Positions 22,638-52,506 of a DNA stretch of 53,950 nt are shown piece by piece; position 1 is the stretch's first letter, and every line of letters starts with the position of its first letter. The position numbers were made by a program, and so were the translations under genes. The notes under the pieces were generated by a model. That model was given only the letters and a program-made list of their open reading frames with translations, ran no database searches and was not told the DNA's origin. Source of the DNA: Bacteroidales bacterium (GTDB taxonomy: Bacteria; Bacteroidota; Bacteroidia; Bacteroidales; WCHB1-69); NCBI GenBank assembly GCA_016281255.1, contig JAEEIG010000170.1, forward strand, positions 1 to 53,950. Direction: 5' to 3'.

Positions 22638-22742
22638 CCCTTTAACCTTCTAACCTTTTAACCCTTTAACCGCCTAACCGTGTAAACCTGTAAACCCGTA
22701 AACCTGTAAGCCTGTAAACCTGTAAACCCCTAAGCCTGTAAA
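22638..22742. repeat. degenerate octamer tandem array, 13 units
   Basis: CCCTTTAA CCTTCTAA CCTTTTAA CCCTTTAA CCGCCTAA CCGTGTAAA CCTGTAAA CCCGTAAA CCTGTAAG CCTGTAAA CCTGTAAA CCCCTAAG CCTGTAAA. Confidence 0.9.
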
Positions 22743-22748
22743 CCCAAG

Positions 22749-22785: not shown

Positions 22786-22797
22786 CCACCAGCATCT

Positions 22798-22818
22798 GGT
22801 ATCCGGTATCCGGTCTCC
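22798..22818. repeat. heptamer array GGTATCC GGTATCC GGTCTCC
   Basis: Read directly. Confidence 0.8.
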
Positions 22819-37474: not shown

Positions 37475-37506
37475 CATCATCGCATCATCCCATCATCCCA
37501 TCATCG
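37475..37506. repeat. octamer tandem array, 4 units
   Basis: CATCATCG CATCATCC CATCATCC CATCATCG, abutting the udp stop codon. Confidence 0.9.
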
Positions 37507-50914: not shown

Positions 50915-51712
50915 TTACCAGACCGATTCCCAATCTTCCGCCTCCCTCACGGACTTATCCCGCTGGAACTCCAACAGTTTCGCATATTTCAGAAAGCTGT
51001 TGTGGGCGACAGCACGGGAGAGCACATAGCCGTCGAGACCGCCGAGAATGCCGCCCCGGAAGAAGTAGTTGCTGACGAACGCCGCCAGTCCGTGCAGGAA
51101 TGGCGAGAAGGCGTTGGCCTTTTTCCCTTGCAGATAGAGGATTTTCGCGCCGCGGGAACTGTAGTTGCGCTCGGGCTTCGCAAACAGACTGTCGTAGTTC
51201 TTGTAACGGTAATGGATAATGTCGGCCTTGAGCCGTTGCGTGTTCTTCTCGGGCACGAACGCGTGCTGCTTTCGGTCGAGGAAGCGCAGCTTGTCCTTGC
51301 GATAGAGCCGCACGAGCCAGTCGGGGTACCAGTTGCAGGCCTTCACCCACCGGTCTCCGATGTAGTTGCGCCGACGGATAGCAAAACCGTCGTATGGAGT
51401 ATGCTCCAAATCAAGCTGTTGGATGGCCGCCACGAGCTCGTCAGTGAGCCGCTCGTCGGCATCGAGACTGAGCACCCAATCGTTCTTGGCGTGCTCCAAT
51501 GGCAGGTTCTTCTGCGGGCCGTCGCCGATGTAAGGGTGCACGAAGACGCGCGCGCCGGCTTTTTCCGCTAACGCCACGGTGTCATCCTTGCTGCAGGAGT
51601 CGGTGACGATGACCTCGTCGCACACGCGCTGCAACGAGCGGATGCAGGCTTCGATGTTTTTCGATTCGTTAAGGGTGGTGATGATGCCGGTGATCTCCAT
51701 TTCAAACTGCAC
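50915..51712 (-). CDS. glycosyltransferase family 2 (LPS core type)
   Basis: MEITGIITTLNESKNIEACIRSLQRVCDEVIVTDSCSKDDTV, VLSLDADERLTDEL. Confidence 0.93.
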   Translation of the reverse strand: MQFEMEITGIITTLNESKNIEACIRSLQRVCDEVIVTDSCSKDDTVALAEKAGARVFVHPYIGDGPQKNLPLEHAKNDWVLSLDADERLTDELVAAIQQLDLEHTPYDGFAIRRRNYIGDRWVKACNWYPDWLVRLYRKDKLRFLDRKQHAFVPEKNTQRLKADIIHYRYKNYDSLFAKPERNYSSRGAKILYLQGKKANAFSPFLHGLAAFVSNYFFRGGILGGLDGYVLSRAVAHNSFLKYAKLLEFQRDKSVREAEDWESVW

Positions 51713-51726
51713 TTGGGTTTCCGCGG

Positions 51727-51734
51727 CAAAAATA
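51727..51734 (-). promoter_or_regulatory. predicted -7 box of the GT2 gene
   Basis: Minus TATTTTTG. Confidence 0.5.
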
Positions 51735-51746
51735 CAAAAAATTAGT

Positions 51747-51781
51747 TTCAGGATTCAGGATTCAAGATTCAGGATTCAGGA
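51747..51781. repeat. heptamer tandem array, 5 units
   Basis: TTCAGGA TTCAGGA TTCAAGA TTCAGGA TTCAGGA. Confidence 0.95.
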
Positions 51782-51901
51782 CAGGGCTTTCGCATCCATG
51801 TTTTTATTTGGGCGAGCCGGCGCGGCGGGAGCCGATGCGATGTGGCCGAAACCGCGTCTCTCAGGTGTTTGGGCAAGTTGGTACGCAAGCCCTATAACTC
51901 C

Positions 51902-51936
51902 ATTCACTATTCACTATTCACTATTCACTATTCACT
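51902..51936. repeat. heptamer tandem array, 5 perfect units
   Basis: ATTCACT x5. Confidence 0.97.
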
Positions 51937-51944
51937 AAAAATCG

Positions 51945-51952
51945 TATTTTTG
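51945..51952 (+). promoter_or_regulatory. predicted -7 box of the small lipoprotein gene
   Basis: TATTTTTG, 24 nt before the start codon. Confidence 0.5.
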
Positions 51953-51976
51953 CCGCTTGATAAAATCATCCTAAAT

Positions 51977-52291
51977 ATGAAAAAAATCATTGCCTCCGCC
52001 TTTGTCGTGACCATTCTCGCCCTCTTTGCGGCGGGCTGCACCAACTATGTAAATTGTACCTGCGCCTACGATCTCGAGAACGAAGTGGTAGATTCCGTGC
52101 TGTGGAACGCGGCTGGACAACCCATCTACCTCAAGTCTGACCCCATTCTCCCACAGGAGAAAACCTATATCCGTGACACAGTCTCCGCCACAGGAGACTG
52201 CTCTTCATTAAACTATTACGATCCTATCGGCACCGAATATCCGAATGTCGGTCTCCGGCTTCACGCCATCGTGAACTGCTGGGAGAAGTAA
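51977..52291 (+). CDS. small lipoprotein
   Basis: MKKIIASAFVVTILALFAAGCTNYVNCTCAYDLENEVVDSV; lipobox AAGC; 104 aa. Confidence 0.7.
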   Translation: MKKIIASAFVVTILALFAAGCTNYVNCTCAYDLENEVVDSVLWNAAGQPIYLKSDPILPQEKTYIRDTVSATGDCSSLNYYDPIGTEYPNVGLRLHAIVNCWEK

Positions 52292-52472
52292 CGCCAATCC
52301 CGCCACTTCGATCTGGTGACTGGTTCGCGTTACTGTTTGTCGATTTTCTGCGAAATTTATTAAATTATTTTAATTAATTTCAAATCAATTAGTTAAAATA
52401 ATTTTATAACACATTGTTATTCAAGACAAAACAAAAAATTTCAAAACCCTTGACAAAGCTGTTTTTTCATTG

Positions 52473-52480
52473 TATATTTG
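52473..52480 (+). promoter_or_regulatory. predicted -7 box of the next gene
   Basis: TATATTTG. Confidence 0.45.
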
Positions 52481-52506
52481 CCGTACAATTTTTAACCTTT
52501 GAAAGT

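Follow-up and report, generated by a model that had tools for sequence, protein, structure and literature searches.

TTCAGGA heptamers beside a glycosyltransferase gene belong to a genome-wide set of intergenic repeat arrays in a Bacteroidales lineage

Contingency loci with simple sequence repeats, such as the tetranucleotides of Haemophilus, carry short tandem repeats near a promoter or a gene. Dispersed heptamers have been described in Xanthomonas (GGGAATC) and Nostoc (GGGGA(T/C)T), with one G-rich, quadruplex-forming unit per genome; 83% of the sites are common to two species, and the G-rich strand reads away from the adjoining gene end (Rehm et al. 2015, PMC4692102). Direct repeats of TAACTGA are found in Beggiatoaceae, Cyanobacteria, and a few Bacteroidetes (MacGregor 2015, PMC4679880). 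The latter paper cites Mrazek et al. 2007 for an excess of heptamers among repeats of 5 to 11 nt and for polymerase slippage as the proposed origin; judging by this citation, the bacterial heptamer excess has been on record since at least 2007 with no demonstrated cause. In Xanthomonas, 7-bp loci used for VNTR typing consist of mixed units and differ by whole units, one of them having 6 to 18 copies (PMC8002079).

We analyzed a stretch of 53,950 nucleotides (the window; contig JAEEIG010000170.1 of assembly GCA_016281255.1) in which two heptamer arrays lie between divergent genes. On the minus strand, a glycosyltransferase family 2 (GT2) gene of 261 aa occupies positions 50915 to 51700, with its ATG start at 51700 (PF00535, E value of 3.7e-16); its best matches in NCBIfam fall far under the cutoff and give no substrate. 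On the plus strand, a small ORF of 104 aa with a lipoprotein-like N terminus (51977 to 52291) had no match in a family search. Pattern matching places a candidate Bacteroidota −7 box, TATTTTTG, upstream of each, at 51727 to 51734 on the minus strand for GT2 and at 51945 to 51952 on the plus strand for the small ORF, where the candidate box has the same sequence, TATTTTTG. The GT2 candidate box, together with its flanking sequence, is also present in the corresponding spacers of L061, L066, and L068. Direct reading and TRF place the TTCAGGA array at 51747 to 51781 on the plus strand, with units in the order TTCAGGA, TTCAGGA, TTCAAGA, TTCAGGA, TTCAGGA; in the sense of GT2, the unit is TCCTGAA. 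The same methods place the ATTCACT array, of 5.1 copies, at 51902 to 51937 on the plus strand; on its outward (minus) strand, the unit is TAGTGAA. The initial annotation had reported both five-copy arrays, 120 bp apart, and a 12-nt interval between TTCAGGA and the predicted minus-strand −7 box of GT2; we can confirm each of these by direct reading, the box being TAnnTTTG-like. The period-7 scores of 22 (TTCAGGA) and 29 (ATTCACT) are far beyond chance, as order-2 shuffling of the window reached no more than 10 in 100 trials. The two units had also been called unrelated. They agree at 5 of 7 bases in the best register, a level of at least 5/7 being reached by about 24% of random heptamer pairs; thus, kinship was rejected as within chance, and "not detectably related" is the fairer wording.

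Between the two arrays lies an incomplete copy, about 48 bp long (51782 to 51829, plus strand), of a dispersed element of REP-like type; of 41 genomes in the genus, 23 have matches to it. The element (GGGCTTACGCATC...TTTATTTGGGCGAGCCGGCGCGGC...GCCGCGCCGTCGGGCTTTCCG; loci L162 to L190) has many copies in the genus, often close to contig ends. Most copies have no strong heptamer array alongside, and we rejected the idea that the arrays are a component of it. An Rfam search of 51300 to 52500 returned no match. The spacer looks mosaic (51600 to 52150): the small-ORF side is closest to genome G039 (98%), and the side with the promoter of GT2 is similar to G033, G003, and G020.

The pair had been presented as a special case, which does not hold, and the unit length and copy number common to both arrays are no local coincidence. 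From the same genome we sampled 449 kb, the window plus 48 contigs picked by number, and counted maximal runs of each period; genes were predicted with a simple hexamer model, and gene ends were those of our own caller. Period 7 accounted for 42 arrays, 32 of them intergenic and 10 in sequence called coding. Period 8 followed with 12, each remaining period from 3 to 13 had at most 5, coding and intergenic together, and period 14 only recovered the period-7 arrays; shuffled sequence yielded none. Both window units have dispersed copies in this genome, where the ATTCACT unit family is also present elsewhere. Among 140 distinct arrays from the genus, we found 88 distinct units, with a median copy number of 5.4. 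TAACTGA was not found among the arrays listed; the units differ. The TTCAGGA array is one of hundreds of intergenic arrays, mostly of 7-bp units and of dozens of sequences, in this rumen bacterium and its relatives. The assemblies are metagenomic, so copy number may be misjudged, and the source assembly is in 225 contigs and 82% complete.

The window itself has other arrays, all plus strand: octamers of the TAACCTTC and AACCTGTA types in another spacer (22643 to 22728, within the interval 22638 to 22744), a weak ATCCGGT heptamer array of 3.6 copies (22794 to 22818), and an octamer array of 3.9 copies of CATCATCC in a divergent spacer (37475 to 37505). At five loci, inverted array pairs (AGACTTA ... 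AAGTCTC) could fold as long intergenic hairpins (L092, 5381 to 5523; L099, 2506 to 2618; L114, 6388 to 6622; L129, 2848 to 2938; L200, 13314 to 13510). One long ORF (L130, 770 to 4090) contains four heptamer arrays, which may therefore be translated as 7-residue repeats.

Period-7 arrays are concentrated in this lineage. With 20 stretches sampled per rank, there were 58 arrays in the genus, 16 in the family, and 2 in the order, and the genomes carrying them numbered 17, 6, and 2 of 20, respectively. Frequency thus falls from the genus to the family, and the order has almost none. Named relatives place the lineage among rumen Bacteroidales metagenome assemblies.

Orthologous spacers support the generation and replacement of arrays in place, as judged by sequence comparison. 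Before the GT2 orthologue, several sister species (L060, L062, and L063) have no array; L061, L066, and L068 have TTGAAC-type repeats where the window has TTCAGGA, and others carry different heptamers (CTTAACC, AACCATA, GCAAATC, and CTAAACT) beside the GT2 start codon. In G039, 12 bp stand in place of the whole block from 51738 to 51933; seeds for both arrays in this empty site reach 6/8 each, a match that random spacer segments make unconvincing. Elsewhere, orthologous arrays differ in length between species by 7, 14, 21, or 28 bp (29/36/57 bp, 26/33/40 bp, and 46/67 bp), and at one orthologous spacer (L207, 7612) at least four unit families are found across species. The initial suggestion, that some mechanism produces heptamer arrays and that they are not copies of a single repeat, is therefore well supported: 88 units make up 140 arrays, period 7 dominates, and sister species carry other units in the same spacer.

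Arrays are unevenly placed, with 1.45 per kb in tandem spacers, 1.07 in convergent spacers, and 0.39 in divergent spacers. Because divergent spacers are depleted, the window pair is the less common arrangement; two or more arrays occur in 21 of 114 array-bearing spacers. Of the 73 arrays in tandem spacers, 35 start no more than 20 nt from the stop codon of the upstream gene (20 ± 3.5 expected), many of them overlapping it. Neighboring genes include those for phosphofructokinase, the Obg GTPase, an EPSP-synthase-family enzyme, biotin ligase, and peptidase M3. In a plain tally of a small sample, the 18 neighbors of other arrays with a Pfam match were mostly housekeeping genes, with one TonB receptor and one OMP barrel, and thus showed no enrichment of surface genes.

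At starts as well as stops, arrays that touch a gene end are G-rich and C-poor on the strand that reads outward. For arrays no more than 25 nt from a gene end, this strand had G>C in 58 and G<C in 6, counted on the same arrays in which the polarity was first noticed. A further set, only partly independent since it combined own-genome contigs picked for ATTCACT/TTCAGGA arrays with loci of related genomes, gave 27 versus 7 (P = 8e-4, indicative because samples from sister genomes are partly dependent). When arrays up to 30 nt away were pooled, they divided 37:4 at starts and 49:12 at stops. Beyond 60 nt, polarity was absent (10:9), and non-array spacer bases had no comparable skew. Leader arrays were polar (59:20) when no −7 box lay between array and start and not when one did (16:15), a contrast confounded by distance from the start and dependent on boxes that are pattern matches. 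Start-side arrays free of ATG, GTG, and TTG on either strand kept the polarity (7:0), so avoidance of start codons cannot be its sole cause. Where a spacer had two or more arrays, 13 of 21 had a G-type array on the left and a C-type array on the right; G-G and C-G orders never occurred. Most exceptions to the polarity come from a TGAAACC/GTTTCAG family (L046, L048, and L050) that is close to TTCAGGA and has an identical sense orientation at starts and stops.

The TTCAGGA array marks a genome-wide repeat-making process and is probably no dedicated switch of the GT2 gene. As to the process, we lean toward arrays, of heptamers and less often octamers, that are formed in place by slippage and then sifted by selection acting on transcripts. 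Slipped-strand DNA synthesis, favoring a step of 7 to 8 nt, would form arrays and turn them over; they would survive in spacers, often directly after stop codons, and selection would keep leaders poor in G and trailers poor in C. An array separated from its gene by a −7 box is probably not transcribed with that gene, and the loss of polarity in such cases fits a transcript filter. The TTCAGGA array, just upstream of the candidate GT2 box, may passively alter promoter strength. The proposal has gaps: ordinary slippage does not account for the lack of periods 5, 6, 9, and 10, and the transcript filter requires two separate reasons, one at starts and one at stops.

The initial annotation pointed to phase variation, in which array slippage would change promoter geometry and switch the GT2 gene and hence surface glycans. 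The array does adjoin a candidate −7 box, whole-unit differences between species are seen in such arrays, and 7-bp arrays vary among Xanthomonas strains (PMC8002079). However, arrays are spread over the genome beside mostly housekeeping genes and are depleted in divergent spacers, and the GT2 gene of some sister species has no array before it; GT2 phase variation is thus not supported. Rehm et al. considered it unlikely for the Xanthomonas and Nostoc arrays on similar grounds (PMC4692102), and we give it little chance here. Regulatory binding sites, at which a protein would recognize the array in DNA or RNA and control how the neighbor is transcribed or translated, seem similarly improbable. 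The C-type arrays that in some cases adjoin a start codon would suit such sites, and translational control has been suggested for TAACTGA arrays (MacGregor 2015, PMC4679880), but the variety of units within one genus speaks against a sequence-specific binder, and orthologous spacers exchange units or drop arrays. An assembly or sequencing artifact might be suspected in so fragmented and incomplete an assembly. We give this practically no credence, as the same arrays recur in many independently assembled relatives and orthologous arrays are identical or off by whole units.

A slightly less remote alternative, though still an unlikely one, is a generator directed to gene boundaries: an enzyme that would extend 3′ ends at spacer breaks with short G/T/A-rich repeats, in the manner of telomeres, before joining. 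It would explain in one stroke why polarity is outward at either end of a gene, a single rule covering starts, stops, and all spacer types, and the G-left, C-right order of multiarray spacers agrees with it. Yet 88 units are impossible from a fixed template, arrays with a −7 box between them and the start lack the polarity, and the array-rich genomes G027, G005, G020, G029, and G013 have no match to PF00078 (reverse transcriptase), for which reason a reverse-transcriptase origin of the arrays was rejected.

Slippage in place followed by transcript selection remains our preferred reading. More broadly, and as a tentative idea that we consider rather doubtful, the step of about 7 nt may be set by machinery and not by sequence in at least three distant bacterial groups, with arrays gaining a fixed polarity at gene ends. 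If a machinery-set step were true, this genus, in which units are many and species differ through fast turnover, would be the lineage in which to study the process. Because orthologous spacers of sister species have different arrays or none, the 7-nt step can be tested directly, and so can the polarity.

In the open-access literature, the closest counterparts include the Xanthomonas and Nostoc repeats. Like the arrays described here, they are dispersed, mostly intergenic heptamers with no tie to surface genes, with many period-7 arrays per genome and a G-rich strand that reads outward. Since Rehm et al. report the same arrangement (PMC4692102), the polarity rule itself is not new. The single quadruplex-capable unit of those genomes is not found here: neither TTCAGGA nor ATTCACT has a run of three G, most units of this genus are predicted from their sequences to be incapable of forming quadruplexes, and the 88 units of the genus sample are replaced between species. 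The TAACTGA repeats are likewise few-copy intergenic heptamers, often just before start codons (PMC4679880), but that system has one dominant unit, with related heptamers rarely repeated, whereas here units vary and the stop-codon side is favored. The survey of Mrazek et al. covered many genomes; this lineage and the outward strand rule are absent from the text that cites it (PMC4679880). At the Xanthomonas VNTR loci, variation was measured among strains (PMC8002079); here it is seen between species. Contingency loci share the short tandem repeats near a promoter or gene; unlike them, the arrays here showed no enrichment at surface genes in the small sample tallied and are depleted in divergent spacers. 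In this one genus, many units share a common period and a common outward strand rule. Because so many units obey it, neither a single sequence nor quadruplexes can underlie the rule, and this independence of unit sequence is what the lineage adds.
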